Assembly: GCA_017958225.1 (NCBI GenBank)
Contig: JAGDDD010000027.1
Location: forward strand, 1-40,709
Direction: 5' to 3'
DNA from: Alphaproteobacteria bacterium
Lineage (GTDB): Bacteria > Pseudomonadota > Alphaproteobacteria > CAAHEQ01 > UBA3637
Length of the DNA stretch: 40,709 nucleotides
The notes below the pieces were generated by a model. That model ran no database searches. It was not told the DNA's origin and was given only the letters and a program-made list of their open reading frames with translations. The translations under genes and the position numbers were made by a program. This document shows, one piece after another, positions 1-39,196 of this stretch. The first letter of the stretch is position 1, and every line of letters begins with the position of its first letter.

Positions 1-39
1 CAATCATATGTTCTATGGTAGATACAAGGGCGCGTTGCC
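1..39. repeat. 39-bp direct repeat, copy 1 (at window edge)
   Basis: Bases 1-39 are identical to 451-489; identity stops at base 40 versus 490. The left limit cannot be seen. In both copies the minus strand encodes the same peptide in the same frame. The distance between copies is 450 bp, a multiple of three. Confidence 0.95.
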
Positions 40-415
40 GGTCGGCTTCATAGTCGCTGGCCAAATCTTCAATAATGGGCAACACTTTTTCTGCCGCCAA
101 ATCATACACCGCCTGCGCTTGTTTGTTGGTAAAGCCCAAAGCGCACAGTTTGGCATTGACTTCCGGGTTACTGGCCAACAACTTATGTTTGACTTCTATT
201 TTATACTCTTCGGGCGTATCGGGCACACCGAGAGCGTGATAAAAAGATCTTTTTTCTTCTTCGGGAGCATCATCTGCCGGTGGCGTCATACGCTGTGCAA
301 ACTTTTTCTCCAATTCCAAGTAAGATTTTAATAATTCTTGTGTTTTCAAAGAGCCATCTTCGTCTTTAAACTTCAATGGTACTTCTGGGGTTTGTTTCAT
401 AAGATTTTCAGTCAT
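1..415 (-). CDS. Phage capsid assembly scaffolding protein (partial, runs off the left edge)
   Basis: The frame is open from the ATG at 415 to the window edge, about 138 residues, with no stop reached. The ATG follows a clear AGGAG. The N-terminal part (DGSLKTQELLKSYLELEKKF, then LGVPDTPEEYKIE) has the look of podovirus scaffolding proteins, which guide capsid assembly and sit next to the portal gene. A later stretch, AQAVYDLAAEKVLPIIEDLA, also fits that family. The last 13 or so visible residues (QRALVSTIEHMIE) are identical to the C-terminus of the gene just upstream, because bases 1-39 duplicate 451-489. They do not look like scaffold sequence, so the extreme left edge may be a recombination joint or an assembly artefact. 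The product call is from pattern recognition only. Confidence 0.65.
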   Translation of the reverse strand, partial: MTENLMKQTPEVPLKFKDEDGSLKTQELLKSYLELEKKFAQRMTPPADDAPEEEKRSFYHALGVPDTPEEYKIEVKHKLLASNPEVNAKLCALGFTNKQAQAVYDLAAEKVLPIIEDLASDYEADRQRALVSTIEHMI

Positions 416-427
416 AATCGCTCCTTT

Positions 428-673
428 TTATTGACCGTTGATACCGCGTTCAATCATATGTTCTATGGTAGATACAAGGGCGCGTTGCCCTTCCAAAGTG
501 CGCAGTTGCGCATCCGAGGCATCGCTTCCTAACACGCGGTTTTTTGTTATTTTTTGTAAAAAAGCTAAAACATCTTTTCCATCGGTTGTTCGAAAACACC
601 GCGCAAAAGATTTGGTAATGCGTTCTTCAAAAGAACTGACGACCGGCGCCGGTTTTGTTTTAAATAAAGACAT
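428..673 (-). CDS. Bbp19-like small phage protein
   Basis: An 81-residue protein with GGAG 6 bases before the ATG. The core (ITKSFARCFRTTDGKDVLAF, then EGQRALV near the C-terminus) resembles the Bbp19-like phage domain, a short helical protein of unknown role usually found between portal and scaffold genes in podoviruses and related prophages. That is where it sits here: 3 bases after the portal gene and 12 before the scaffold start, so it is probably translated from the same phage mRNA. Its last third includes repeat copy 2. The family call is from memory of the motif, not a search. Confidence 0.6.
   Translation of the reverse strand: MSLFKTKPAPVVSSFEERITKSFARCFRTTDGKDVLAFLQKITKNRVLGSDASDAQLRTLEGQRALVSTIEHMIERGINGQ
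451..489. repeat. 39-bp direct repeat, copy 2 (inside the Bbp19-like gene)
   Basis: This is the exact partner of 1-39. Here it lies in the 3' part of the 81-codon gene and encodes QRALVSTIEHMIE. That peptide fits the C-terminal helix expected for the Bbp19-like family, so this copy is probably the original. Confidence 0.95.
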
Positions 674-676
674 TTG

Positions 677-2128
677 TTACTCCACACACTGTATCGGGTT
701 ATTTAATAATTCCATTGGCACATTGAGTTGTTGAGCCAACCAACGCACAAAAGCCTGGACATTGACACAACTGGACGCCTCGGCACCCAACTTAGACACA
801 TTGGTAATCCAATCCAGCGCTGACTGCGCATCTGCCGCCTGTTGCTGACGTGCCAAAGGTGATTTGTATTGAACATCTATCAGGCGACCGTCAATATACA
901 GTTCGGGAATCTCTCCGCGCCGCTTCAAAATGGAAATCGCACGTTCCAATAACGGATTGAGCAACTCGGTCTGTAAGCGACCATAGGTTGCCCCCAACAC
1001 GCGCACCATATCTTGCGAACGCTCGATGACTTCTGTGGCGGTCATGGGGTTGTTTTCACTCAATTGTCCCAACTTATCCACCAACAAAGCGTGGCGAATA
1101 CGCGAGCGCAAATCGTTGAGCACCAACTGCGAAATATCAAAATTGCCGGCGGCTTCCAAGGGCGTCAGGCCTTTTGACCCGACCGCTTTGGGAATAATCG
1201 CACCCGGGGTCAAGCGAATATTGGCGGGGTTGAGCACGCCATCGTCTTCGGCCTGCCAAATACCTGTTACCGCGATGGTGGCGTTTTTCAAAATCAGTTC
1301 CACAACCTTGTTAGCGGTTTTAATATCCGGCAAAGCCTTCATCACAGGCGAACGCCCGTAAATCTCGCCGGCGGCTTTCAACCAACGGAACACCAACAAA
1401 GGCGCTGTCGCAAAAAAGCCTTTTTGAATAACCGCGCATTTTTCAACGCCTAGCACACGATCCGGATCTTCAGGCACAAAGACAATATAGTCATAACCGC
1501 CCTTCTTCGCGGGCAAAATAGCCTCAACCACAGCAATCTTGGTTTCCTTTTTGTCGTTTTGAACCGGCACTTGCGGAAAACGCTTGGTCAAGATACTCAA
1601 AGGCATGTGAGAATAGCGAAAGACCGTATCCAGCCGGCCGGAATAGCCTTCATCCGCATACAGTTCGGAAATAGGCACCGCGGTAAAGTGGAAGGCGCTT
1701 TTTTCGCCAATGGCACTTTCTTCAAACAACAAACATGCCGTTCCAACGGTAATCAGGTCCAAAAAGCACTGGTGTATTTCAACGGACAAGCCGGAGTGAT
1801 CAAAATGCGCTTGTATCGTATCCGATATCTGCTCCAAAGCCGGCATAACCTGCGCAGCCTCATCGCCGACGACATCCGACCCAACGGTCAAATCAAACCA
1901 TTTAGACCAAGGCGGCATCAGTTCTGAAAGCATAGAGGCGGCCAATTGATCCACGCTGTCCGGCGCCGTTCCGTCAAACAACTTGTTTGTGGAAGACGAC
2001 AGGCCGGAAAACAAGCCTTCCGATTGAGGCAATGCATATTCGTAACACTCACGCCAGGTAGATTCGACCAAATCGCGTCTGGCTTTCACGCGCAAGAAAT
2101 GCTCATAAAGTTCGGGCACAGTTTCCAT
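677..2128 (-). CDS. Phage portal / head-to-tail connector protein (T7-like)
   Basis: A 483-residue protein with AGGAG 6 bases before the ATG. The N-terminus (YEHFLRVKARRDLVESTWRE, then LFDGTAPDSVDQLAASML and LMPPWSKWFDL) matches the head-tail connector family of podoviruses. That protein forms the dodecameric ring at the capsid vertex through which DNA is packaged and ejected. The stretch SENNPMTATEVIERSQDM near residue 365 is also typical. The usual family length is about 480-550, so the gene looks complete and has no stops or frameshifts. It follows a 63-codon gene with one base between, and precedes the Bbp19-like and scaffold genes, the normal order for this module. Whether it belongs to an inducible prophage or a remnant cannot be told, because terminase and capsid genes would lie beyond the left edge. 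Confidence 0.85.
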   Translation of the reverse strand: METVPELYEHFLRVKARRDLVESTWRECYEYALPQSEGLFSGLSSSTNKLFDGTAPDSVDQLAASMLSELMPPWSKWFDLTVGSDVVGDEAAQVMPALEQISDTIQAHFDHSGLSVEIHQCFLDLITVGTACLLFEESAIGEKSAFHFTAVPISELYADEGYSGRLDTVFRYSHMPLSILTKRFPQVPVQNDKKETKIAVVEAILPAKKGGYDYIVFVPEDPDRVLGVEKCAVIQKGFFATAPLLVFRWLKAAGEIYGRSPVMKALPDIKTANKVVELILKNATIAVTGIWQAEDDGVLNPANIRLTPGAIIPKAVGSKGLTPLEAAGNFDISQLVLNDLRSRIRHALLVDKLGQLSENNPMTATEVIERSQDMVRVLGATYGRLQTELLNPLLERAISILKRRGEIPELYIDGRLIDVQYKSPLARQQQAADAQSALDWITNVSKLGAEASSCVNVQAFVRWLAQQLNVPMELLNNPIQCVE

Positions 2129-2129
2129 A

Positions 2130-2321
2130 TTATTCTCCTAACAGTTTTTTACGTTGAGGGATTTTGTCATTTTCGGAGAGCAGCCCACGCATACTGGTGG
2201 CTACAGTTCCCAGGCCGGCGTGTCGTCTCAAATAACTGGTATCCGGCTGCTCTTGCGGAAAAGAGGCCGAATCATTGGACACAGGCACATCCAAGCCAAC
2301 GATTTCTTTGACTTTTTTCAT
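2130..2321 (-). CDS. Small phage protein upstream of the portal gene
   Basis: A 63-residue protein with AGGAA before the ATG. The middle (GLGTVATSMRGLLSEN) and the end (QRKKLLGE) match a pattern I recall in short proteins just upstream of connector genes in T7-like phages: a T-S-rich loop, then a basic tail ending in LLGE or LLGQ. No function is established for that group to my knowledge. It is the first gene after a promoter and an internal hairpin (2389-2481), so it opens the phage structural operon. Confidence 0.6.
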   Translation of the reverse strand: MKKVKEIVGLDVPVSNDSASFPQEQPDTSYLRRHAGLGTVATSMRGLLSENDKIPQRKKLLGE

Positions 2322-2357
2322 AGTAATTTCCTAAAAATGATTGCAAAGTGCGTTAAA

Positions 2358-2438
2358 AGGGAAACGCGCTAACAAAAGGAGGAAAAAAATAGCCTTCTTT
2401 TGCAAGAAGGCTATGTAAGAGAGGGCACACGTTTCCCT
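2358..2438 (-). ncRNA. Structured leader or small RNA: outer 9-bp stem enclosing a terminator-like hairpin
   Basis: Minus-strand transcription from the 2453-2481 promoter would begin near 2446. It would first make AGGGAAACG (2438-2430), then a perfect 11-bp hairpin with a TTGC/GCAA tetraloop (2414-2389) followed by seven U, then CGTTTCCCT (2366-2358), which can pair with the first segment. The inner hairpin alone would stop transcription and give an RNA of about 65 bases. Read-through would reach the phage genes. The pairing is read directly from the sequence; function as a small RNA or attenuator is inference. Confidence 0.45.
2383..2414 (-). terminator. Rho-independent terminator
   Basis: Arms 2404-2414 and 2389-2399 pair perfectly over 11 bp around a 4-base loop, and the minus strand continues into a seven-U tract (2389-2383). 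It ends transcription from the two accessory phage genes to the right. It also lies downstream of the 2453-2481 promoter, so it may act as an attenuator for the structural genes. Confidence 0.8.
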
Positions 2439-2452
2439 AATAACTGGATTCG

Positions 2453-2481
2453 TGTATAGCATACTTTTTTATATTTGTCAA
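2453..2481 (-). promoter_or_regulatory. Sigma70-type promoter for the phage structural operon
   Basis: On the minus strand there is a perfect -35 TTGACA (2481-2476), a 17-base spacer and a -10 TATACA (2458-2453). Expected start is near 2446. It lies in the gap between the accessory gene ending at 2493 and the structural genes starting at 2321, with a terminator hairpin just downstream. Confidence 0.7.
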
Positions 2482-2492
2482 GGAATATTTTC

Positions 2493-2873
2493 CTATTTTT
2501 TGATTAAATGCTTAAAAAGTTGGTAAGGTGTAAGCATAAAAGCCGATGGCAAGCCCAGCACACGCCGCACCGTTTCCACACAGGTAAAGGGACGAATCGC
2601 CATCCCCGGCTCATCCGATTCGCGCACCTGCGTTTCCACTGTCCGATAACCCTTCAAGTGCAGATATTCCTTTAATTTCGTATCATGCAGCACCATCACA
2701 TCCAAACAGTTGGCCAACGGGTCCAGCAAGATCCATTGGTCGCCCTCACCCAACGCCACCAGACAGTGATAAAAGCCTTTTTTCAGGAAGCGTTGCCACC
2801 AAAAGTGCGGCGTTCCACCAAACGCAACCAGGGCTTTTGGGTAACGAAAACCGTTCAGGCGCACCCCGATCAT
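2493..2873 (-). CDS. Phage-associated conserved protein, possible permuted papain-like fold
   Basis: A 126-residue protein whose ATG overlaps the stop of the upstream gene (ATGA, 4-base overlap), indicating coupled translation. The segments FYHCLVALGEGDQWILLDPL (residues about 34-53) and FTCVETVRRVLGL (about 96-108) are, as far as I recall, conserved in alphaproteobacterial phage proteins of unknown role. A His in a beta strand, followed by an Asp and later a Cys at a helix start, is the order expected for a circularly permuted papain-like (NlpC/LRAT-type) hydrolase. I infer this from motif order only. It is the last gene before the terminator at 2383-2414. Confidence 0.5.
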   Translation of the reverse strand: MIGVRLNGFRYPKALVAFGGTPHFWWQRFLKKGFYHCLVALGEGDQWILLDPLANCLDVMVLHDTKLKEYLHLKGYRTVETQVRESDEPGMAIRPFTCVETVRRVLGLPSAFMLTPYQLFKHLIKK

Positions 2874-3274
2874 TTGTCATACTCCATCGCCAAGGCCAAG
2901 CCAAACGGCGCCACAGAGGACAACCCGCGCACGATTCCCTTGTTAAACAAAGGCTGCCACAGGCGCGTCATCGCCTCACGCCACAGATTTTTGTCCTCTT
3001 CGGTGCTGTCGTCAGCCATATAGGGCGACACCTGCTTCAAGCCGTAGCGGCTGAGCACACGCAAATGCTTCTGCATCAGGCACTTGTCAGCGACGAGGCG
3101 TTTGATGACAATAAAGATATCAGAGGTTTCGCAGGGCGGAACTTTGGCAGAGGTCGCATGCGCACGCCCGACTCCTTTGTGCATATCGCAAAAACAACAC
3201 CAAAACCAAGCGTCTTCCACACTTTCAAAAGGCTCGGCCACGCGAGAGTCAATACAACCCGATGGATGAAACAT
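2870..3274 (-). CDS. Phage-associated conserved hypothetical protein
   Basis: A 134-residue protein. I choose the ATG at 3274 because GGAGG lies 5-6 bases upstream; a longer reading from 3355 would cross the promoter. The segments RVAEPFESVEDAWFWC, PCETSDIFIVIKRLVADKCL and LWREAMTRLWQPLFNKGIV match a conserved family seen next to phage genes in many Alphaproteobacteria; its function is unknown to me. The last codons overlap the next gene by 4 bases. It is the first gene of the leftward transcript from the regulator-phage divergent region. Confidence 0.55.
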   Translation of the reverse strand: MFHPSGCIDSRVAEPFESVEDAWFWCCFCDMHKGVGRAHATSAKVPPCETSDIFIVIKRLVADKCLMQKHLRVLSRYGLKQVSPYMADDSTEEDKNLWREAMTRLWQPLFNKGIVRGLSSVAPFGLALAMEYDK

Positions 3275-3310
3275 ATATACCTCCGTTGAATAAAATACAA
3301 TGATAAGTAG

Positions 3311-3340
3311 TATATATTTACATTGTATGTATATTGTCAA
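3311..3340 (-). promoter_or_regulatory. Leftward phage promoter with embedded palindromes (operator candidate)
   Basis: On the minus strand: -35 TTGACA (3340-3335), an 18-base spacer and a -10 TATATA (3316-3311). The spacer contains the palindrome TACAT-TGT-ATGTA (3319-3331). An inverted pair ATACAATG (3295-3302) / CATTGTAT (3321-3328) spans the expected start. Such symmetry over a promoter is typical of repressor operators; the divergent regulator at 3556 is the obvious candidate ligand. The binding itself is inference. Confidence 0.6.
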
Positions 3341-3391
3341 GAGAAAAATAAGCAAATATTCCTATTTATTTTAATTTTTTTCATAATACGA

Positions 3392-3422
3392 TTGCAAAAA
3401 GAGAGAAAAATATGTATGATAC
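3392..3422 (+). promoter_or_regulatory. Promoter of the regulator gene with a palindrome over the -10
   Basis: -35 TTGCAA (3392-3397), a 17-base spacer and -10 TATGAT (3415-3420). The -10 sits inside the perfect palindrome GTAT-G-ATAC (3414-3422), which could be an autoregulatory operator. The leader to the ATG at 3556 would be about 130 bases. Confidence 0.6.
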
Positions 3423-3555
3423 ACTTGAAAAATTGATTTCGGATGTGCGTGCGTAGGAGCGGCCGGACAAACAAAGCGTCGCAACCCGCACCAAAAACGA
3501 ATCGCAACGGAACATAATATGCAGATAACACAAACAACAAGCAAGGGGGAACACA

Positions 3556-4170
3556 ATGTATTTTAATATTTGGCGTGGCATAGACAATTTGGCCCTGCAA
3601 AAAGGCGTGTCGCTTTCTAAATTAGCGCAGAAAGCAGGTTTGAACGCGTCTATATTCAATAAAAGCAAGCGTGTCGGTGCTGACGGTCGCCCTCGCTGGC
3701 TTTCCACAGAGACATTGGATAAGGTGCTGTCGGTAACGCATACCACTTTTTTAGATTTTATGGTGCTGTGCGGTGAAGAGGTCCATAATTCCGCGCTCGT
3801 GCCTTTAATCAAGGACTCACAACTGGCAAAGGACAAAGTGCTTGATTCGTTTGGCAATCTTATCAAATCAAAGGACGCCCTAGCCTTTCCGGGCGTGCTG
3901 CCGGCGCATTGTTATATGTTAGAGGTTACAACGGACAAGTTACAGCCCTTTTATCGCCCGGGCACATTGTTGCTCATCAGCCCGCAACAAGAATTACGCA
4001 ACAAAGACCTCGTGATTATGAAAACGCGGCAAGGCGATATCGTATTCGGCATGCTGAAACACCGTTCTGCCCTTAAAATCACGCTAACAAGCTTTTTGGG
4101 CACACGCGCCAAGCATTTTGACAGCCGGAACGTGTCCTGGATGGCGCGCATTATGTGGGCCAGCCAATGA
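3556..4170 (+). CDS. C2/LexA-like transcriptional regulator with degenerate S24 peptidase domain
   Basis: A 204-residue protein; a GGGGG tract precedes the ATG. Residues about 15-50 form a helix-turn-helix (GVSLSKLAQKAGLNASIFNK, then PRWLSTETLDKVL) and residues about 110-204 an S24 signal-peptidase-like domain ending in WMARIMWASQ, as in a common alphaproteobacterial regulator family. In active members the nucleophile Ser is in G-D-S-M-x-P; here the matching stretch is TTDKLQP, with Lys at 128. The usual catalytic Lys in MAKEL also appears lost (VFGML, around 163-167). Self-cleavage is therefore unlikely, so it would be a repressor insensitive to SOS cleavage or a dimerisation-only domain. 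It is transcribed away from the phage genes across a region with palindromic operators. Its stop directly abuts the stop of the convergent gene at 4171. Confidence 0.8.
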   Translation: MYFNIWRGIDNLALQKGVSLSKLAQKAGLNASIFNKSKRVGADGRPRWLSTETLDKVLSVTHTTFLDFMVLCGEEVHNSALVPLIKDSQLAKDKVLDSFGNLIKSKDALAFPGVLPAHCYMLEVTTDKLQPFYRPGTLLLISPQQELRNKDLVIMKTRQGDIVFGMLKHRSALKITLTSFLGTRAKHFDSRNVSWMARIMWASQ

Positions 4171-7100
4171 TTAGTCTATACAGAAGGCTCTTGTGCTAGT
4201 TCTGTTTCGCGCCCAACCACCACATATATTACCGTCGCTACCATTAACAGCCGAACGATAGCTGAAATAAGCGCAAGCATAGTTGCCGGTACAATTATAG
4301 GGCTGTAAATAGACATTATAGGGCTGATCCCATCCTATCAGGTCAGGACACATTAAATTGAGCTGTATAGCATCTGGGCAACTATGTCCGGATTCTGAAT
4401 AGGCATTTTGACACTCATAAGGCTTTTTACCGAAGGCGACACACCAGTTACGCGCGCTCCAAAAATCCAAAATGGTATTGGAAAAATAAATATCTTTATT
4501 CGTGGGCAGGTGGTCAACAGTGTGCCCACCGATAGGCTTACACGTGCCAGCACCAGGTTCTTTGGGTTGCGGGCTGGTGTAATAGCAATAATAGCCCGAA
4601 TCGTAGCCGCCGCAGTGATCTTGGGTTGTACAAGGCAGATCTTCGCAATGAGCAGCTGAGTTTTTCGTGCAGGGCTTGCATTGGTTATTTTCTATGTAAC
4701 GCCCCATTTCGCATTGAACGCAGACATTATTTTCCGAATAATAACCGGTCGGACAGGCAACGCAAGTTGCTGTGGCTGCATCCCACTCATAGCCGGCCGG
4801 ACATTGACACTCGGTCCCGTCTTTAATAGCGGTGGAGCCTGTCGGACAAGCGACACAAGCCCCGTCATGCAAGATCGTGTTGCCTTGACAGGTTTTGCAT
4901 TGACCCGATTGACAGGTCATCCCCAATTCAGCGCAACAATCAGCCGAAGTGGAACAAGTCGCCGCACAACATTTATGGGCAAGATCACTGTAAAAGCCAT
5001 TGGAACAATCGCACGTTCCGTCGGCTTTCAGTGTCATACCCACCGGACAGGCTTGGCACACACCGTTTTCTTCCACTTGATCGGCGCGCTCACAGGATGT
5101 GCATTTGCGCAAGAAACTGTTCCAGAAATGCGCTTGTGGGTTATAAAAGGCGCACGACGGACAATCGGCGGTTTTGTTTTCAGCCAAGGCCACACAATCA
5201 ACACAGGCGGTGCCTTCGTCATTGGCGCGCTGACCGGGGGCGCAACGCTTACAAGCGCCGTTGCTCATGTAATGAGATGACGCGCAACCTTGACACACTT
5301 GCTCAACATCATTCCAGTAAGGCTTATGCGGATCGGCCGCCGCACAGGACGCACAAGACGCATTGACATTGGTGCAACGCACTTGCTTTGTCTGTGTTGA
5401 ATCCGGCTCGTTGCCCAAGGTGCAATCAACGCATTGGAAGGCCGAGTTCATATATTGGTTTGGTGCGCAACCGCACGTTTCCGGTGTCGTGCAATCGGTC
5501 GTTACGCATTGTTTGGTATCTGTGTTCAAGGCCGAACCGTCATTGCACACGCACTGGCCATTTTCCAAATGCGCCTCGGTCGCACAAATGTCATAGGTGC
5601 AGGTGTTCGTGGTGGCATTATATGTGCCCGAGCCCAACACATTACACAGGCAGGTATCGCCCGATTTGTTGGCATTTTCCGGACAGGTAACGCACGTTCC
5701 GTCGTTCAGCATGACTTGATCCGAACGACAATTAGACTTTTTGGCTTGACAATACACGCCAACAGTAGATGACGCTCTTTTCCCGACACGGTTTCGCCCA
5801 TAACTACTTCCCGCAGTTATACTGACACGCCGTGCACAACATTTATTCACATTATCGCAATCGGCCTCTATTTGACCACCGGCCGTCCATAAAGGACCAC
5901 CCGGACCATTCCAAAAGTTAGCCGCGGCTTGGTAATTTGCTTCAAGCTCGTTATAGTTTATCAGTGTCATCCCCATAGCATCACACAGATTCCACGCATC
6001 ATACCAAGAAATATCATTTGTGGTGCGTATAGGATAAAATCCCTTATAAGGCTCAAATGACAATTTTGGTAATTTCACACATTGTGGATTTAAATCACTA
6101 CCATCTGGGCAAATGCTGGCTTTACTGGAATCGACGGCATGGCCCCGACAATAATACCCTTTTGGACACAGCTCATTACATTTCCATGGGTCAGACAGGC
6201 AGTATTTACCGGCATACAATGTTTTACCCGGTGGGCAATCCGTTACTAAACAAGTATTCGTTCCGCGATCCCATGTTGTGCCGTTGGCACAAATACAGGT
6301 ATCGCCGGTCGGGTCTTTGGTGGCATTGTCCGGACAAGTTTGACAATCGCCCTCGTTTGTGTGAACTTGGTTATCCGGACAGGTCTTAATGTCGTTTTTC
6401 ATACATACGATACGTTCACCCGGAGATGATTTATTCAACTCTTTATTTTGTGCGCTATAAACTCCGTTAAAATAAGCAAACCTGCCGGCAAAACAAGGTT
6501 TAGCCTCTGTATTTATTTCATTAGCTTTCCAATAATATTGCGCTTGTAGAACAGCAATTAAGTCGTCTTTATATGCGGTTGTTTCAGCATCCGTGAGTAA
6601 ATGTCCACCAATTGAATCGCAATAATTCCACGCGTCATACCATGAAAACTGACCATGACGGGCATAAATACCATTACGTATTGTTTCAGACCCGCGCGTT
6701 GCGCACGTTTGCGTCGCCGCCCCCGGTGTTGGGCAAACATTTGTCGCACCATTTGTTGGTGTGGAACCAACTTTGCAGAACTGATAACTTGTGTCGCACA
6801 GTGAGTTGCATTTCCAATCGGGGACGCAACGGGATGTTTCCTCGTCAAACTTATACCCGTCCTCGCAATTGTCCGTATAGGTGCAGGTATTATTTGTTTT
6901 ATCAAAAGTGCCCTCACCGCCTTCGCAAACACAGGTGCGCCGATCTTCCGACGGATGAGAGCCCGACGGGCAATCGCGACAGGTCATATCATGCGCATAG
7001 GCCTGATTACCGGTGCATTGTTCCGTAGGATCCTTGATACACAACCCATGCAGGCGGTTACCATCCCCATTGGCATTTGCAGAGTTTCCCCAAGTTTTAT

Positions 7101-9135
7101 GATTTTTGCTCCAAACATTTCCAACATAACCAAAATATGCCTTACATCCGTCTTCATCCGCCAACCAATAATAAGCAATGTTTTTTACAAGTTGTTTGAC
7201 ATGCGTGTTGTATTGCGCATGTTCTGCTCGGGTTGCCAAGCGCAAACCGGCCGCGTTACAGCGGTTCCAGGCATCCCACCAACTATGGTTATTGCCGTTT
7301 GTCAAGGCAAACCCTTCGTAAAACGATCCTACACCGCCTGTGGTACAAGTATATGTTATATCCGTTACACCGCAAGCGCCATCCACATTACCGGCCGGGC
7401 TATCATTGACACGACAATACTTACTACCCGTGCATAAATTGTTGCATTGCCACGTGGCTGCCACACATGCCCCGGCAACGCACTCAAACCCGTTACAGCA
7501 ATCTTCTTTTGTTGAACACGCATTCGGACAACAGGTCGTTTGTCCGTCCTGCGTGCTTTCGGTAAATCCCTCGGCGCAGACGCAACTGTTATCACTGGCC
7601 ACCTGATGTTTTTCAGCATCACAGGTAATACAAGCGCCGTCCTGTAAATAACTGTTGCTGAGGCATTCGCAGGTGCCATGGTTACACACAGCCCCTGTCG
7701 GCGATGTGCAATCGTTATCCCGTGCGCATTGCCACAAGTTTTCGCCTGCACACACGACCTCAAAACCGGTGGCGTTGTTTTTCGCTGCGCCCGTCGCGTT
7801 CTTTTGGCAGTCCATGGTGTAACTCCAACATGACCCCGTTCCCGAGCCAAATGCGGTGGATGTCCATGCCTTGGCGTTCAGGTTACGACAGGCGGTTTGT
7901 ATGGGGATCTGACTGGTGCGGGCGGTTGCCTCATCAAGCAGTGTTCCGTTCAGCGCAGCGCAAATGTTCTCTGCGTCGTATTTGCTATATACGGTCTTTT
8001 TGGAGCATGCCCAACCGTTGTTAAACTTCATATCGATTCTTTGGCATCTGCCGGTGGTCGGCGTGGTGCAAGAGTCACTGCTTTCTGCCATGTCGCAGAA
8101 ATATCCGTCGCAACAATCGTCGTTGCTGTCGCAGGCGGTGCCTTCTCTGGCCTGGCAGAACTCGGTGCATTGGTTGCCGCCGCATTGGCCATAACCATAG
8201 GCTTCGCACGTTTCATCCGTTGTGCAAATACAGGTCGTTCCGTCCCAATATGGCCGCCATGGCGTTTCCATTTCGCACGAGCCGCACAAGCCCACAGAAC
8301 ACGCCTGACAGGTGCCCGCTTCGGTGCAATATTCGCCTAAATCACAATGGCTATCAATAATACATGCTTGGCAGGTGTTCGTTTTGTTGTTCCAATAAGG
8401 TTGAGCGCCTGTGCAACCGGTGTTTTCCACGCAGTCTTTGGTCTCTGAGTCCCATTTCATGCCTTCCGGGCACACACAGACATTGTTAAAGCAACGATCC
8501 ACCGGGCAATCTTCCACATACCTGGTGCACATCGTGCCGTCCGGCGCCGGATAAGTTTCCGGTTTGCCGCAAGGAATCATCTCGGACACAGGGCAAGAAT
8601 CGTCTTGCGGTGTATAGCCGCCGCCCTCGCCCGATGTATCCACTGTTCCGTCGCCGAACACCAAAGTCAATGTATTGCCATTGCCCTCTTCGCACAAGGT
8701 GCCGTTGTGTTCTAATGGCGACTGGCAACCCGAAAAATTGCCGTTTAACCCACCCGAACAGTTGATGTAAAAGTAATTGGCCGATGATGAGGATGCGACA
8801 TGCTCCAACTGCTCACACACGCGCTGTTGAATATTCGACACATAAATCGAAAAATCTTGAGGCCCTAACTTTTTGTGAATAAAGTGATAACGCCCGCTTT
8901 GGCTGGCAAACCCGACAACAGAAAAGTTTTCGTTGATGGGCTTTGCTTTGAACGAGGGCGAGGTTTCTATCAGCACCGCACGCGCGCCGACGTCCTTAAT
9001 CAGTTGAATCGCCTGCACCCGCGACAGCCCCCAGGCTAAGCCCGTTGTGCCGCCGATTGCCAAAAGGCCCATCAAAGAAATGACCGCCATCATCTCCAGT
9101 AAGGTGCGTCCTTTTTGTGTGTGTGAAACCTGCAT
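4171..9135 (-). CDS. Giant prepilin-like Cys-rich protein with five C-type-lectin-like modules
   Basis: A 1654-residue protein. I prefer the ATG at 9135, since GGGAG lies 6 bases upstream; the ATG at 9141 touches it. Residues 1-9 are a basic prepilin leader, cut after Gly9 (KG|RTLLEMMAVISLMG), with Glu at mature +5 and a hydrophobic helix to about 35. A pilin-head region follows (to about 165), with paired Cys around SIYVSNIQQRVCEQL and a LTLVFGDG strand. The rest is rich in Cys, with EGF-like and GCC-type repeats, and at least five modules centred on YDAENIC (about 375), WWDAWNRC (620), WYDAWNYC (832), WYDAWNLC (1043) and FWSARNWC (1560). Each has the layout W-x-x-A-x-x-x-C, a G-x-x-L strand and a final W...C, as in C-type-lectin folds. 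The protein is probably exported through a type IV pilus/type II machinery and displayed outside, with many disulfides. Ligand unknown. No pilus genes are nearby. Family assignments are by eye. Confidence 0.8.
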   Translation of the reverse strand: MQVSHTQKGRTLLEMMAVISLMGLLAIGGTTGLAWGLSRVQAIQLIKDVGARAVLIETSPSFKAKPINENFSVVGFASQSGRYHFIHKKLGPQDFSIYVSNIQQRVCEQLEHVASSSSANYFYINCSGGLNGNFSGCQSPLEHNGTLCEEGNGNTLTLVFGDGTVDTSGEGGGYTPQDDSCPVSEMIPCGKPETYPAPDGTMCTRYVEDCPVDRCFNNVCVCPEGMKWDSETKDCVENTGCTGAQPYWNNKTNTCQACIIDSHCDLGEYCTEAGTCQACSVGLCGSCEMETPWRPYWDGTTCICTTDETCEAYGYGQCGGNQCTEFCQAREGTACDSNDDCCDGYFCDMAESSDSCTTPTTGRCQRIDMKFNNGWACSKKTVYSKYDAENICAALNGTLLDEATARTSQIPIQTACRNLNAKAWTSTAFGSGTGSCWSYTMDCQKNATGAAKNNATGFEVVCAGENLWQCARDNDCTSPTGAVCNHGTCECLSNSYLQDGACITCDAEKHQVASDNSCVCAEGFTESTQDGQTTCCPNACSTKEDCCNGFECVAGACVAATWQCNNLCTGSKYCRVNDSPAGNVDGACGVTDITYTCTTGGVGSFYEGFALTNGNNHSWWDAWNRCNAAGLRLATRAEHAQYNTHVKQLVKNIAYYWLADEDGCKAYFGYVGNVWSKNHKTWGNSANANGDGNRLHGLCIKDPTEQCTGNQAYAHDMTCRDCPSGSHPSEDRRTCVCEGGEGTFDKTNNTCTYTDNCEDGYKFDEETSRCVPDWKCNSLCDTSYQFCKVGSTPTNGATNVCPTPGAATQTCATRGSETIRNGIYARHGQFSWYDAWNYCDSIGGHLLTDAETTAYKDDLIAVLQAQYYWKANEINTEAKPCFAGRFAYFNGVYSAQNKELNKSSPGERIVCMKNDIKTCPDNQVHTNEGDCQTCPDNATKDPTGDTCICANGTTWDRGTNTCLVTDCPPGKTLYAGKYCLSDPWKCNELCPKGYYCRGHAVDSSKASICPDGSDLNPQCVKLPKLSFEPYKGFYPIRTTNDISWYDAWNLCDAMGMTLINYNELEANYQAAANFWNGPGGPLWTAGGQIEADCDNVNKCCARRVSITAGSSYGRNRVGKRASSTVGVYCQAKKSNCRSDQVMLNDGTCVTCPENANKSGDTCLCNVLGSGTYNATTNTCTYDICATEAHLENGQCVCNDGSALNTDTKQCVTTDCTTPETCGCAPNQYMNSAFQCVDCTLGNEPDSTQTKQVRCTNVNASCASCAAADPHKPYWNDVEQVCQGCASSHYMSNGACKRCAPGQRANDEGTACVDCVALAENKTADCPSCAFYNPQAHFWNSFLRKCTSCERADQVEENGVCQACPVGMTLKADGTCDCSNGFYSDLAHKCCAATCSTSADCCAELGMTCQSGQCKTCQGNTILHDGACVACPTGSTAIKDGTECQCPAGYEWDAATATCVACPTGYYSENNVCVQCEMGRYIENNQCKPCTKNSAAHCEDLPCTTQDHCGGYDSGYYCYYTSPQPKEPGAGTCKPIGGHTVDHLPTNKDIYFSNTILDFWSARNWCVAFGKKPYECQNAYSESGHSCPDAIQLNLMCPDLIGWDQPYNVYLQPYNCTGNYACAYFSYRSAVNGSDGNICGGWARNRTSTRAFCID

Positions 9136-9157
9136 ACTCATCTCCCAAAATATTTAT

Positions 9158-9188
9158 TTTATATTAGCGCGCTAAGACTTTCTGTCAA
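9158..9188 (-). promoter_or_regulatory. Promoter of the giant prepilin-like gene with a 12-bp palindrome
   Basis: On the minus strand: -35 TTGACA (9188-9183) and -10 TATAAA (9163-9158) with a 19-base spacer, or TAATAT (9166-9161) with 16. The spacer contains TTAGCGCGCTAA (9164-9175), a perfect 12-bp palindrome placed where a bound repressor would block polymerase. The regulator is unknown. Confidence 0.6.
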
Positions 9189-25415: not shown

Positions 25416-25562
25416 AATTTTTTCCTTTCATATATGCATTGATAACTTTGTCTATATTGTGCTTGAACACAAAAAATTGCAAGTCTTTTTTTTCAAAACA
25501 GGTTGATTTTTTTGCACCCCTATCCCATATAGCATATATAAGTATTACAAAAGGAGTTTATG

Positions 25563-32618: not shown

Positions 32619-35330
32619 TTACGGAGCGGGATAGGTAAAGTCACCTGTGGATTGACTGCCCTTATAGAACATTGTGCGTGTTACCGCATCAAACATACCC
32701 GGTTGTCCCGACGAATCTAATGCCGGAAGGAAATACCCTTTCAAAGTCGAATCCCACAACATTTTCACCCAATATATCTTAACATTGGCGTATTGCTTAA
32801 CCGTTGCAGCCGCTTTATTTGCAAACAACACGGCCGTATACCTGTTATCTTCAACATAATCTGCTGAGCTTGTCCATACGGTTGCGTAATCCACCAAAAA
32901 GGTTTTCAAAGCCATAATCATCGTATGATCTGCTGTATCCACATTCCAATTGCTTACGCAACTTGTTGTTGAACAGTAATTGGTTTTGCCACCCCAACCT
33001 ATGAAAGGTGTTTTGGAAAAGGAAAACTGCGATCTTGTTGTTCCGACAACATCTCCACCGTCAACACCGAAAACATAGCAACGCCGCTTAGATGTATCTG
33101 TGTTTGCAAATTTGGCTTCAACATGGTTATAATCAGCGGTGGAAAGCCCAGTTTCAATGTACTGACCTTTTTGCGCATCTCCCTTATTATCAGGGTCAGA
33201 ACCAGATGATTGCAAATAAGCCACTGGTGTATAGAACGTGCATAAATGCGTGCTTGTGTTGCAAGACGAATAGACCTGATCGCCACAGCTTTCACCCGGC
33301 AAACACAGCGCACAATCAGCATGAGCCAAGCATGACGGGGGATCACACTGTCCGGCTGTTGCGTCCCAAGTCGAGCCTGACGGGCATGTGCATTCGCGGG
33401 AATTGGCCTGCGATGTCGAGCCATTGGGGCACGCCACACATTCGTTGTCTTTATAATAGGTATTGGCCGGACAAGCCTCGCACGTGCCGGAGCCGGCATT
33501 TAAGACATAACCTTCGGCGCACATTTTGCCACATAGTGCCGAATAAGTATTGTTTCTGGCGCGCAATAAATATCCGCCCGAGCCATCCAGATAATACCCG
33601 TCGTTGCCCGAGTTGGAGCCTGTCCAACCGGCCAATTGATTCGTATAGTTCGCGCAACCTGCTACCCCCACTGATGGCACTGCGCCACACAAAGCGGACG
33701 AGGCAACGATGGCGCCCTGCTCTTCTTGGCCGGCTGTCGCTACAGCACACCAGTTGGCCGCGCTCCACCAATCCATTGTTTGCGCACTTTGAAAGATTCC
33801 GTAATTGGCGGCACCATGATTCCTGTCGCCTAACATGCGACATGTGCCAGTGCCTGCTGACGAGCTGTCTTGCGGTTGATAGCGACAATAAGTCAAGTCC
33901 GGACAGCCTGAGTTCGCTGTGCAACTGATCGGCCCGCACACACCGTTATTACAAACGCCCGGCGTTGTCAAATTGCCTAATTCGCTATCTTTAAAAACAC
34001 ATGAGCCTTCGTTGGCCTTTTGTATAATACCTTCATCGTCCAGGTAATGGCAGTTGTCCAGTTTGCATGTGCCGTTAGAACATTGACCGTGGTTGTGGCA
34101 CGCGGTTCCGTTCTCAACATTGGCCGAGGTGCAAGTCGTCTCATCCGTAATAGTCTTACAAGGATTGTTTGCCGCCGGGCAGATACAGACCTTTAAATCG
34201 CCACACACTTTCGGATTGACACAGGACGCATCCGACGCACATCTCGGCTGACACGTGCCGGAATAGCAATAACCGTTTTCCCCGTCTTGTGTTTCGCATT
34301 GTGTTCCGTCCGGTTTGTCCGAAAACTCACATCTTTGGGAGTTCACTTGTCGGCAAGGCCCTTGATTATCGCAATCGTTGGTCGGGCACAAGGGCAAATG
34401 ATACGCGGTCTTTTTGTCCGTCGCGGTCGAAGTGCCCTGTATGTAAGAGGCTTTGTGACCAATCTCTTCACTTGTCCAGGCTCCGTCGTAATCGGCCGAG
34501 GCTACTCCAGCCGGCAACGCCGCAGATTTGTTGGCCGCTTTGCAAAAGTTCATCGCATCCCACCACGTCATCGTCGTGGTCGCTGACAAATAAACACGCC
34601 CGGCCCTGCCTTGGACATAGACTGTTTCAATGGGTTTACACTCGGGGCGCGCCTTTAAGGACGATTCTTCCTGGCTGCCCGCCCACTGTTGCACCGAGCA
34701 CATATATCCGTCTTGGCACTCACCGCATATTGTCGAAAAAGAATCGACGGACACACATCGTTTATGATACGGATCCCAAACAGTGCCGTCTGCGCAATCT
34801 TCTTCATCATCAGATATCGGGTGGCACTCATCGCCTGTGCAACCTTCCGGAAAATTGACCTGTGCAGCGTCAAAGTAAAAGACCAAATTCACTGTGTCGT
34901 TGTCGCCGCAGTCGTCGGCTTCCGGGCTATTCCCATTTTTCTTCGCGCCATTGACGCTGACAGCGCCTAAAGGCACGATGGAATAGTTTTGACTGAGCAG
35001 GCGGCGGCAGATACCATTGCCAATGCTGGATATACCGATACTAAACTGAACAGAAGAGTCCGGGCTGGTCACACGACGGATGGTATAACTGACCCCGTCA
35101 GATTGCGCCGCAAAGCCGCCCAAAGTCACTGTGTTACCCACCTCTGCTTTGGCAACGGTTGCGGATGTTTGTGCCGCTATGGCTCGCGTTGTAACCCCGT
35201 CATAAATCTTACGTGCCAAGGCTGTATTGACCGCCCAATCAAAGCCGGCCAAAGCGCCTAGCGTGGCTACGCCTATCAAGGCTAGCCCTGCCAAAAAATC
35301 TGTCAAAGTTACGCCACGCTGTGTTTTCAT
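32619..35330 (-). CDS. Prepilin-like Cys-rich protein with two lectin-like modules and a C-terminal jelly-roll domain
   Basis: A 903-residue paralogue of the proteins at 4171 and 36185. The leader is cut after Gly6 (MKTQRG|VTLTDFLAGLALIG); mature +5 is Asp, not the near-universal Glu. A hydrophobic helix follows, then a pilin-head region with ISSIGNGICRRLL, a second Cys (EADDCGDNDTVNLVFYFD) and a strand pattern shared with its paralogues. Two modules with WWDAMNFC (about 256) and WWSAANWC (about 518) resemble C-type-lectin folds. They are separated by EGF-like Cys-rich units. Residues about 700-903 (YIETGLSTADYNHVEAKFA to GQPGMFDAVTRTMFYKGS) look like a concanavalin/LamG-type jelly roll seen in gut bacterial surface proteins. 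Probably a secreted adhesin on a pilin anchor. Roles inferred. Confidence 0.78.
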   Translation of the reverse strand: MKTQRGVTLTDFLAGLALIGVATLGALAGFDWAVNTALARKIYDGVTTRAIAAQTSATVAKAEVGNTVTLGGFAAQSDGVSYTIRRVTSPDSSVQFSIGISSIGNGICRRLLSQNYSIVPLGAVSVNGAKKNGNSPEADDCGDNDTVNLVFYFDAAQVNFPEGCTGDECHPISDDEEDCADGTVWDPYHKRCVSVDSFSTICGECQDGYMCSVQQWAGSQEESSLKARPECKPIETVYVQGRAGRVYLSATTTMTWWDAMNFCKAANKSAALPAGVASADYDGAWTSEEIGHKASYIQGTSTATDKKTAYHLPLCPTNDCDNQGPCRQVNSQRCEFSDKPDGTQCETQDGENGYCYSGTCQPRCASDASCVNPKVCGDLKVCICPAANNPCKTITDETTCTSANVENGTACHNHGQCSNGTCKLDNCHYLDDEGIIQKANEGSCVFKDSELGNLTTPGVCNNGVCGPISCTANSGCPDLTYCRYQPQDSSSAGTGTCRMLGDRNHGAANYGIFQSAQTMDWWSAANWCAVATAGQEEQGAIVASSALCGAVPSVGVAGCANYTNQLAGWTGSNSGNDGYYLDGSGGYLLRARNNTYSALCGKMCAEGYVLNAGSGTCEACPANTYYKDNECVACPNGSTSQANSRECTCPSGSTWDATAGQCDPPSCLAHADCALCLPGESCGDQVYSSCNTSTHLCTFYTPVAYLQSSGSDPDNKGDAQKGQYIETGLSTADYNHVEAKFANTDTSKRRCYVFGVDGGDVVGTTRSQFSFSKTPFIGWGGKTNYCSTTSCVSNWNVDTADHTMIMALKTFLVDYATVWTSSADYVEDNRYTAVLFANKAAATVKQYANVKIYWVKMLWDSTLKGYFLPALDSSGQPGMFDAVTRTMFYKGSQSTGDFTYPAP

Positions 35331-36184: not shown

Positions 36185-39100
36185 TTATTCCGGATCATCC
36201 GAAATGGCATCATCATCACAATGGACAGCTGCAATATTGTGATAACACAACGGATACAGCATACCACCATCGACGAAGATCTTCTTTCCACCGGCCTTGA
36301 CGACCCAAGTCCCCGCCACAAATCTATCTTCAATGGCGTTCAACTTACGGATCTTGTATTCGTTTTGAATGACACCGGAACGGACATCATGTGTATCAAT
36401 CATACACTGTCCGCCTTCCGGAGCTGTATTTGACTCCCAAACACGACGCGGCGTATTCGGACCGGACAGGTAGCTGTTAGCATTTTTCAACGCAGAACGA
36501 ATACGACGCGGATGCTTACAACCTTTACGACGACGAATTTCGGTATTGGATGGCATCTTAAAGCTAGAATCAGCCTGTTTCATGACATTACAGATAATCT
36601 GTGTGTCATACCAGTTGGTCGGTGTCGCACCGGCATAGAACTCACCACCGTTCTTTTGGTGTTGACGATGCATTTCAATCATCTTGAAGGTACCTCTAAT
36701 CAGACCTTTACCGTCGTTGCCCGGGGTTGTGCCCACCGCGCAGTATTTAACGGTAATTACCGCATCGCCAGCCTTACCGGACACAGACGGTTCTCCGTCG
36801 CAAACGACATCCAGGAAGGCTTTATCGGTACAACCTTTACCACGAATACCCGCAGGATCACATTGTTTCGTTGTGTCGTTCCAGACATAGCCCTCATCGC
36901 AGACGCAAGTGCCATCAACGAATTGACTATGCAACGGGCAAACACAACCACTCATGCGGGGTTTGAACAACCATTTATCCCAAGGTTCAGGCACCTTCGC
37001 ACCCTTCTTCGCATCGCATTTCAAGCAAGTCGCACCCTGCTCGTCATGCCAACCAAGGCAAACACACATCTTGTCGCCTTCCGGTATCTGATAGCAAGTC
37101 GGATAAGCCGGATCCGTGCAGTCGTCGTCAGTTTCGCAGAACTGATTCGCCTGACATGTATTGGTCTTCGGATCCCAGACTTGCGTTTCGTCGTCGCAGA
37201 TACAGACATCCGCTGATGTCCAATCCGGACGAGACGAGCCCTCACCGCAAGGATTACATTTCGCGCCATCCCAGTAAGTATCTATATCACACTTACAGTT
37301 GTTGCTTTGGTGCCAAATCTTACCCGGATCTGTGCAGGTGCAGCCTGTTAAACGGCTGGTTTTCCAACGCTCTCTGATTTTTTCCCAAACGGAGCCCGCC
37401 GTTTCGTTACAACGGATACAAGAATCCGGACCATGGAAGCCTTTGCAAATGCATTGGCCGGTCGCAGCGCCCTCTTCTTTATAACAATCAGGATACGGTT
37501 CGGCACAATCAGCATCCGAAGAACAGGTTTCACCGCAAGAGTTGGTCTTCGGATTCCAGGTTTGCGATTCGTCATCACAGATACAAACATCCGCTGATGT
37601 CCAATCCGGACGAGATGAACCCGGTCCGCAAGGATTACACTTTGCGCCATCCCAATAAGTATTGACATCGCACTTACAGTTGTTGCTTTGGTGCCAAATC
37701 TTACCTGGGGCTTTACATGTGCAACCCGTCAAGAGTTTTGCCAACCATTTGGCCTTAATCTTTTCCCATGTGGCACCCGCCGATTCGTTACAACGGATGC
37801 AGGAGTTCGGACCATGGAAGCCCTTACAGATACAATAACCTGTCGCTTCATTGGCGTCTTTGTAGCAGTCGGGATATGGTTCATCACAATCAGCATCGGA
37901 TGAACACGGCTTGCCGGCACCTTTACATGTATTGGTTTGCGAATCCCATGTCTGTGATTCGTCGTCGCAGATACAGACATCCGCTGATGTCCAATCCGGA
38001 CGAGATGAGCCTGCACCGCAAGGATTACATTTCGTGCCATCCCAATAAGTGTCGGCTTTACATTTACAATTGTTGCTTTGATGCCAGATCTTATTCGCGT
38101 CTGTGCAGGTGCAACCTGTTAAATGATAGTTTTTCCAACGGGCTTTAATCTTCTCCCATGTAGCGCCCGCCGATTCGTTACAACGGATGCAGGAGTTCGG
38201 GCCATGGAACCCTTTACAAATGCACAAGCCGGTGGCACTGCCGTTTTCTTTATAACAGTCAGGATACGGTTCTGAACAGTCGCTATCTGTCGAGCACGCA
38301 GCCGCACAGGTATTTGTCTTCGGATCCCAGACGGAAGTCGGGTCGTCACAGATACACACCGCACTACCCGCCGGTGAATGTGCGTTGGACGGGCAAGGCA
38401 AACACTGTTCAGGGCCCCCATTACCGCCATTGGAATAGGTATTGGCCGGGCAAGGCAAGCATTTTTCGCCTTCTAAATAATACCCCGGCAAACAAATACA
38501 TTTACCGGCGCCGTCACACTCGCCATTTTCATAGCAACGTGTGCCTTTATCAGCCCAACGAACCTTCAACGGACAACCGCACTTGTCCTTATCCAGCGCA
38601 ACTTCGCATACCTTTAACTTACGGCAACTGGATGTGCTGCAACTGCCGATGATGGTGCCACCACCATCGCCGCCCCCACCTATACCACGACCAGCCAAAC
38701 CGAGTGCCCGATCAAAGTAATACACAACCTTGTTGTCGGCTTCTAAGCACGCTTCAGCCATTTTCTTGTTGTCCATGCTTTCAACGGACACATAACCTTT
38801 CTCGTCGTTCAAGGCGATACCCTTGACCGGTGTTTCTTGATAGTCCATATCCAACAATTTTTGGCAGGCTAATTGGTTAAAATCTGATACCGCGATGCTG
38901 TAACTGTTCGCGTCCGCCTTATAATGATCAAACTTCAGACCGCCCGATGTTTTGGCAAAGCCCATCGGCGGATCGATAATGCCATTGGCCTCTGTTTCAA
39001 AAGTCGCAGAACTGGCAATGGCTGCCGAACGCAACATCACATCCTTAAAGGCGCGTTGCGATTTGGCGCTGGCCATAGCATACCGATATCCGAACAAAGC

Positions 39101-39196
39101 CGTCAATGTCAAGATGGCTACCAGGCCTAAAACAGCCAGCATTTCCAACATTGAACGTCCATTTTGTGTATGATTACATGTGTGCTTATTAAACAT
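36185..39196 (-). CDS. Prepilin-like Cys-rich protein with long tandem repeats
   Basis: A 1003-residue protein with AAGGAG before the ATG. The leader is cut after Gly13 (NG|RSMLEMLAVLGLVAIL), with Glu at mature +5 and a hydrophobic helix. The head region holds SIAVSDFNQLACQKLL and ACLEADNKVVYYFD, matching the paired-Cys layout of its two paralogues. A Gly-rich linker (GRGIGGGGDGGG, about 170) leads to EGF-like units and then four tandem repeats of about 128 residues starting at Cys301, 431, 558 and 687. The first three are nearly identical (DWTSADVCICDDE, KGFHGP-SCIRCN, KIWHQSNNCKC) and the fourth is divergent. The C-terminal part has NWYDTQIICNV and a late GGQCMIDTH, a divergent lectin-like module. 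Probably secreted by a pilus-type machinery and rich in disulfides. Ligand unknown. Confidence 0.8.
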   Translation of the reverse strand: MFNKHTCNHTQNGRSMLEMLAVLGLVAILTLTALFGYRYAMASAKSQRAFKDVMLRSAAIASSATFETEANGIIDPPMGFAKTSGGLKFDHYKADANSYSIAVSDFNQLACQKLLDMDYQETPVKGIALNDEKGYVSVESMDNKKMAEACLEADNKVVYYFDRALGLAGRGIGGGGDGGGTIIGSCSTSSCRKLKVCEVALDKDKCGCPLKVRWADKGTRCYENGECDGAGKCICLPGYYLEGEKCLPCPANTYSNGGNGGPEQCLPCPSNAHSPAGSAVCICDDPTSVWDPKTNTCAAACSTDSDCSEPYPDCYKENGSATGLCICKGFHGPNSCIRCNESAGATWEKIKARWKNYHLTGCTCTDANKIWHQSNNCKCKADTYWDGTKCNPCGAGSSRPDWTSADVCICDDESQTWDSQTNTCKGAGKPCSSDADCDEPYPDCYKDANEATGYCICKGFHGPNSCIRCNESAGATWEKIKAKWLAKLLTGCTCKAPGKIWHQSNNCKCDVNTYWDGAKCNPCGPGSSRPDWTSADVCICDDESQTWNPKTNSCGETCSSDADCAEPYPDCYKEEGAATGQCICKGFHGPDSCIRCNETAGSVWEKIRERWKTSRLTGCTCTDPGKIWHQSNNCKCDIDTYWDGAKCNPCGEGSSRPDWTSADVCICDDETQVWDPKTNTCQANQFCETDDDCTDPAYPTCYQIPEGDKMCVCLGWHDEQGATCLKCDAKKGAKVPEPWDKWLFKPRMSGCVCPLHSQFVDGTCVCDEGYVWNDTTKQCDPAGIRGKGCTDKAFLDVVCDGEPSVSGKAGDAVITVKYCAVGTTPGNDGKGLIRGTFKMIEMHRQHQKNGGEFYAGATPTNWYDTQIICNVMKQADSSFKMPSNTEIRRRKGCKHPRRIRSALKNANSYLSGPNTPRRVWESNTAPEGGQCMIDTHDVRSGVIQNEYKIRKLNAIEDRFVAGTWVVKAGGKKIFVDGGMLYPLCYHNIAAVHCDDDAISDDPE
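37139..38296 (-). repeat. Three near-identical tandem coding repeats (130, 127 and 129 codons)
   Basis: Units begin at 38296, 37906 and 37525 (minus strand). The plus-strand block beginning ccgctgatgtcc recurs at 37981, 37591 and 37210, spacings of 390 and 381 bp. DNA identity is high as well as protein identity, so the duplications are recent or kept alike by gene conversion. Confidence 0.9.

Follow-up and report, generated by a model that had tools for sequence, protein, structure and literature searches.

A single uninterrupted frame in the stretch of alphaproteobacterial DNA analyzed here (the window, 40,709 nucleotides) probably encodes a giant modular minor pilin of a type IVb pilus, in which five C-type-lectin modules mounted on disulfide-rich linkers would form a multivalent adhesin (Table 1). 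More broadly, we lean toward the reading that one family of small-genome gut Alphaproteobacteria, with up to ~30 module copies per genome, uses the type IVb pilus to display a repertoire of C-type-lectin receptors that is diversified by reverse transcription and stabilized or multiplied into giants, making it a retroelement analogue of the PilV shufflon. The frame, its homologies, the fold prediction, the machinery, the distribution within the lineage and the targeting of relatives by diversity-generating retroelements (DGRs) are computational results and are set out below.

Table 1 Features of the window discussed in the text.
Feature	Position	Strand	Basis or remarks
Phage head-tail connector gene	677-2128		
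S24-like repressor gene	3556-4170		
Giant modular pilin ORF	4171..9141	-	1656 aa, 160 Cys; alternative start ATG 9135
C-type-lectin-like module 5, residues 1532-1656	4174..4548	-	E 2.2e-7 with outside profile; closest in type to the DGR targets of relatives
C-type-lectin-like module 4, residues 1021-1133	5743..6081	-	pairwise scores, profiles
C-type-lectin-like module 3, residues 803-913	6403..6735	-	predicted structure, pLDDT 82.4; PDB fold matches
C-type-lectin-like module 2, residues 591-703	7033..7371	-	pairwise scores, profile
C-type-lectin-like module 1, residues 361-466	7744..8061	-	profile and model of residues 1-470
Type IVb pilin domain: long N-terminal helix and head with conserved Cys109 and Cys150	8647..9108	-	profile matches; model helix 13-60
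Prepilin leader, predicted cleavage after G11 (KG/RTLLE)	9109..9141	-	sequence; weak N_methyl and TIGR02532 matches; G11 invariant among relatives
Sigma-70-like promoter TTGACA-16-TAATAT	9161..9188	-	consensus match only
Paralogue P0002 (903 aa): shares the pilin domain; two lectin-like modules, at 34386-34655 and 33528-33860; C-terminal domain unrecognised	32619..35330	-	
Paralogue P0003, 1003 aa: same pilin domain, Cys-rich repeats, C-terminus at most weakly lectin-like	36185..39196	-	

The first-pass annotation, made from the letters of the window, had placed the giant gene at 4171-9135. The frame is real and intact, but counting from its first ATG moves the upstream end to 9141; a second in-frame ATG, at 9135, has better spacing to a GGGAG ribosome-binding-like sequence than the first. 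The size given there, more than 1500 residues beyond the leader, and the richness in Cys were accurate. The gene stands alone, with a tRNA-Lys upstream and a convergent S24-type repressor gene ending at 4170. Window positions 1-4170 form a contig-end prophage fragment, comprising the head-tail connector and the S24-type repressor, that adjoins the giant pilin gene. These phage genes are what would speak for a phage-borne (moron) gene instead of a chromosomal pilus gene. We give this origin almost no credence, as no relative occurs among 50,697 phage records, no attachment-site repeat accompanies the nearby tRNA-Lys, and paralogues are present on other contigs and throughout the bacterial family; a search of plasmid collections likewise gave no match. 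Elsewhere in the window, an HSP90 gene is split into two overlapping frames (25560-26756 and 26753-27412), reflecting a frameshift, an assembly error or a pseudogene.

Searched whole, the giant protein has almost no matches in Pfam, NCBIfam or PDB sequences, and a scan of the genome collection with the full protein returned nothing; relatives came up only with an alignment of the modules. Its two halves are described separately here. The prepilin leader and helix recognized at first pass are present: the motif QKG/RTLLEMM (the slash marking predicted cleavage) has Gly at -1 and Glu at +5, and a helix is predicted at residues 13-60. Position +1 is Arg, as it is in most of the bacterial family (mostly GRSMVEML), and this residue is unusual for a prepilin. 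Generic prepilin models fall just under their own cut-offs (N_methyl, 0.0011 on the N-terminal domain). HMM searches for a PilS-type head had been proposed at first pass. When N-terminal domains from 17 family members are combined in a profile, its matches include type IVb pilins of solved structure, namely TcpA (3.2e-5), PilS (0.01) and the CFA/III pilin (0.04), as well as further type IV pilins. Cys109 and Cys150 of the head are invariant in the family alignment. An AlphaFold2 model of residues 1-470 has a mean pLDDT of 69.6 and a pTM of 0.40 and, apart from the pilin helix and module 1, is weak; its Foldseek match to PilS is also weak (E 0.16). The sequence profile and the predicted structure together support assignment of the N-terminal half as a type IVb pilin domain.

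The source genome (0.91 Mb in 42 contigs, 85% complete) encodes the apparatus that such a protein would need. A type IVb cluster on contig C16 contains TcpQ, a PilN-type secretin (TIGR02520, 2.8e-78), PAP_PilO, a PilP-like protein, an assembly ATPase and T2SSF; a 227-residue prepilin peptidase (A24) is encoded on contig C19, a PilT-like ATPase on C1 and a VirB11-like ATPase on C34. A genome without prepilin peptidase and pilus machinery had been named at first pass as evidence against a pilin, and both are encoded here. The motif and the peptidase gene suggest that the A24 enzyme would cut after Gly11, and homology to TcpA and PilS suggests that the N-terminal helix and head would pack into a type IVb pilus, with the giant pilin most likely sitting at its tip. 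Alternatively, the prepilin-like helix could hold the protein in the inner membrane, outside the pilus, with the Cys-rich part in the periplasm or displayed by a pseudopilus-like complex. Both the Arg at +1 and the bulk of the protein depart from the norm and would suit this arrangement, which we nevertheless regard as unlikely: genomes that retain the type IVb pilus operon are rich in relatives of 400-500 residues that share the leader, the Cys pair and the module, and modular pilins elsewhere reach the filament (PMC8179133).

Five modules of ~105-125 residues, separated by Cys-rich linkers, follow the pilin domain, and they exist and are mutually related as first proposed. Pairwise scores connect them by way of one another and of paralogues, and an alignment-based profile recovers each of them in the genome. 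A profile built exclusively from sequences outside the source genome matches module 5 (E 2.2e-7) and modules 3 and 4 (0.005-0.007), and with this profile all 200 shuffled proteins and the reversed protein went unreported at E ≤ 10. For modules 1 and 2 the connection runs via modules 3 and 4 and a paralogue on contig C42, described below, and not through the outside profile. The W-x-x-A-x-x-x-C motif that had been ascribed to all five is literal in modules 2, 3 and 4 but not in modules 1 (KYDAENIC) and 5 (FWSARNWC); a fourth strict match, at residue 1453, lies in a linker and was discarded as a chance hit. The linkers are small disulfide-rich repeats, and the proposal that they are EGF-like was not confirmed, as EB, TNFR-like, CC and EGF matches all remain below threshold and no curated Pfam cut-off is reached.

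Structure prediction, proposed at first pass as a check and run on module 3 and on residues 1-470, points to C-type lectins. Modeled with 48 relatives, module 3 (pLDDT 82.4) has the strand-helix order of the C-type-lectin fold, and nearly all of its PDB neighbors are C-type lectins or their kin: bitiscetin (1.4e-4), mannose receptor CRD4 (3.4e-4), CD94/NKG2A, the Bdellovibrio Bd2740 C-terminal domain and the TSG-6 link module. TM-scores of the fold matches are ~0.5. The best fold matches of the 1-470 model are DEC205, snake lectins and the Legionella Lcl C-terminal domain (8q4e). The module sequence profile alone matches animal C-type lectins, such as mosGCTL-1 at 0.0033, and weakly matches Lcl_C and Xlink; the Lcl_C model in turn matches 6 of 49 modules, also weakly. 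No curated family exceeds its cut-off for the module, Lectin_C (0.065) and FGE-sulfatase (0.016) both falling below theirs for module 3. A C-type-lectin fold for this half of the protein is thus well supported by prediction from sequence profile and model, but the fold does not imply glycan binding. Predicted structures lacking such a fold were the other outcome named at first pass as refuting, and the module 3 model answers this in favor of the lectin assignment. From the predicted fold, the modules could nonetheless bind ligands of some kind, and ~1,500 residues of disulfide-rich linker would hold all five out from the filament. Five divergent modules would allow multivalency and the use of several ligands, and a role as a multi-ligand adhesin would be the most likely one for the giant pilin.

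The giant pilin has company in its own genome. The pilin domain is matched at 13 places (E < 1e-6), some of them at contig ends; among these are a 1443-residue relative encoded on contig C42 and two paralogues in the window. The last ~200 residues of P0002, ending GMFDAVTRTMFYKGSQSTGDFTYPAP, have no Pfam match and form a domain that we take to resemble concanavalin-A-like domains. In P0003, about three tandem 381-bp repeats with 77% matches (window 37160-38272) represent an expansion of the Cys-rich repeats.

Beyond the source genome, the module-bearing pilin architecture belongs to one alphaproteobacterial family. Homologues of the N-terminal domain occur in 31 of 32 relatives from this family and in 0 of 24 other families of the class; the lectin module occurs in 35 of 43 family genomes, where a genome has as many as 30 copies, and outside the family in 1 of 397 Pseudomonadota. 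TcpQ is encoded in 39 of the 43. These relatives are assemblies of uncultured Alphaproteobacteria, many of which point to rabbit, rumen, abomasum or rectum samples; the relatives live in animal guts, and the source organism is itself a small-genome alphaproteobacterium. Three architectures recur: a secreted single module of 130-170 residues; a leader and Cys-rich linker followed by one module, 400-500 residues in all; and giants. The largest of the giants, encoded by a yak-rumen relative (L109:7186-18999), is a single frame with a prepilin leader, eleven lectin modules and 430 Cys in at least 3938 residues. In four genomes (G013, G016, G017 and G025), many of the genes for lectin modules lie at the ends of contigs, which suggests that this repetitive family interrupts assembly and that its true copy numbers are higher than those counted. 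In another relative, an LptF/LptG permease and LptD are apparently fused in a single 1079-residue frame (L053:1822-5061).

Relatives also connect the module to DGRs. Reverse transcriptases (RTs) are encoded in 10 of the 43 family genomes, and at four loci (L098, L099, L100 and L101) an RT lies within ~2 kb of a secreted single-module gene whose 3' end is matched by a template repeat. In the best 70-base windows, which were selected by a scan demanding that ≥85% of mismatches fall at A, all 40 of 40 mismatches are at template adenines (7/7, 12/12, 8/8 and 13/13); a separate ungapped comparison had placed the same template repeats beforehand. The template strands are rich in AAC, as those of known DGRs are, and further template-like matches occur elsewhere in genome G002. 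With an RT nearby and template mismatches at adenines, the secreted single-module relatives are, by sequence, evident DGR targets. A second DGR type, at L102, L103 and L105, has a different RT and a different template (translated ...SASSNENENVRCVNY...) and comes with a partner repeat of its own; its template is identical in two genera, and this type is probably mobile.

Pilin-mounted modules appear to bear a DGR mark of another kind, hypervariable codons of AAC type with a fixed third base, in two genomes. In G004, which has eleven pilin paralogues, 12 codons of the C-terminal region vary in the amino acid encoded and keep an identical third base in 11/11 copies, and one further hypervariable codon has the same third base in 10/11; in the rest of that stretch, variation is greatest at the third base. 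Ordinary divergence would not be expected to produce this pattern. Among eight pilin paralogues of G025, the last five codons before ALCR vary freely at bases 1 and 2, with C as the third base in 7/8, and a truncated RT lies ~70 bp after one of the eight genes. An RT and template acting on the G004 and G025 pilins were not found; a template search in G004, G025 and G019 that used a guessed, idealized AAC pattern as query gave none. The RT at L103, in genome G004, has its own template and partner repeat and is thus not a demonstrated source of the pilin variation there. No third-base signature can be seen in the pilins of MAG CANQUX, which are more diverged, or when secreted copies from different genomes are compared.

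How does the giant pilin of the window fit this picture? Its module 5 resembles the DGR-target type of relatives in alignment, and third bases in the tail of this module are C or T in 77% of codons, compared with 60% overall. These features, together with the incompleteness of the assembly, could be read to mean that a DGR is actively diversifying the gene, with its RT and template encoded in the ~15% of the genome that the assembly lacks. We rejected active diversification as a candidate and judge it very improbable: the source genome, at 85% completeness, has no RVT_1 match and no template match, the module 5 tail contains codons (AGA, CGA and ACA) that could not arise from an AAY template, and the five modules differ by insertions and deletions. 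For the same reasons, the five modules look fixed, as diverged descendants of the family lectin that were multiplied within one pilin. Elsewhere in the family, that lectin domain is mounted singly on pilins of 400-500 residues, or secreted alone, and serves as the variable region of DGRs. We infer that a DGR may have acted on the giant gene in the past, and the protein may be one of a set of variable receptors displayed on pili.

There are several implications of the architecture's lineage-wide distribution and of the DGR targeting of its module family, neither of which featured in the first-pass annotation. First, if pili of this family do carry retroelement-diversified lectins, attachment specificity could shift much more quickly than ordinary mutation allows, and the fate of such lectin domains once variation is fixed would be seen in the giant fusions. 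Second, this reading predicts that strain-to-strain variation is confined to the listed codons and that binding differs between paralogous pilins. Finally, modular type IV pilins and DGR lectins, each a well-studied system, would be joined in a lineage for which the literature searched describes neither. In the open-access full texts searched, we found no type IVb pilin as large as this that carries C-type lectins, a union that the first-pass annotation had called little described, and the main text of a global DGR survey mentions neither pilins nor Alphaproteobacteria (PMC8144416). Modular pilins, lectin-like tips on type IVb pili, variable type IVb adhesins and DGR-varied pilus tips are each known separately. 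In the open-access literature searched, we did not find them described in combination, as here, where a type IVb pilin this large carries repeated C-type lectins and belongs to a lineage with a DGR-targeted module.

The closest architectural parallels are modular type IV pilins such as Streptococcus sanguinis PilB, with a vWA module, and PilC, with a ConA-like lectin (PMC8179133). Like the giant pilin, these proteins have a small N-terminal pilin module with one or more adhesive modules grafted C-terminally, and bulky modular pilins are thought to be tip-exposed (PMC8179133). In that survey, however, the extreme is a protein of 860 residues with 12 motif copies, and no C-type lectin is among the functions discussed, whereas the window protein has 1656 residues and five C-type-lectin modules; the yak-rumen relative also lies beyond the survey extreme. 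The type IVb minor pilins TcpB and CofB, which are placed at the pilus tip (PMC9565799, PMC5207764), likewise combine a type IVb pilin domain with a C-terminal lectin-like domain, but theirs is a single H-type lectin-like domain without repeated Cys-rich C-type-lectin modules. Legionella Lcl offers another C-type-lectin-like bacterial adhesin domain, one that can bind glycosaminoglycans through its C-terminal DUF1566/Lcl_C domain (PMC11162425); Lcl has a collagen-like stalk and no disulfides in this domain, in contrast to modules on Cys-rich linkers.

As in known DGR C-type-lectin proteins, the relatives described here combine a variable lectin domain, AAY codons and a nearby RT and template; pilus display would be a further shared feature. 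DGR-diversified tip pilins are reported for Bacteroides type V pili (cited in PMC12632263), and DUF1566 DGR targets are reported to be linked to 'putative pilin structures' (PMC6642488). Unlike in these cases, the carrier here is a type IVb pilin in Alphaproteobacteria, and the window protein is without a detected RT or template. A further comparison is with PilV of R64 and TP114 thin pili, likewise a type IVb minor pilin adhesin, from an operon of PilN/PilO/PilP type, with a switchable C-terminus (PMC9045228). The shufflon varies PilV by DNA inversion (PMC9045228), whereas the variation among relatives of the giant pilin carries the adenine-templated signature of reverse transcription.
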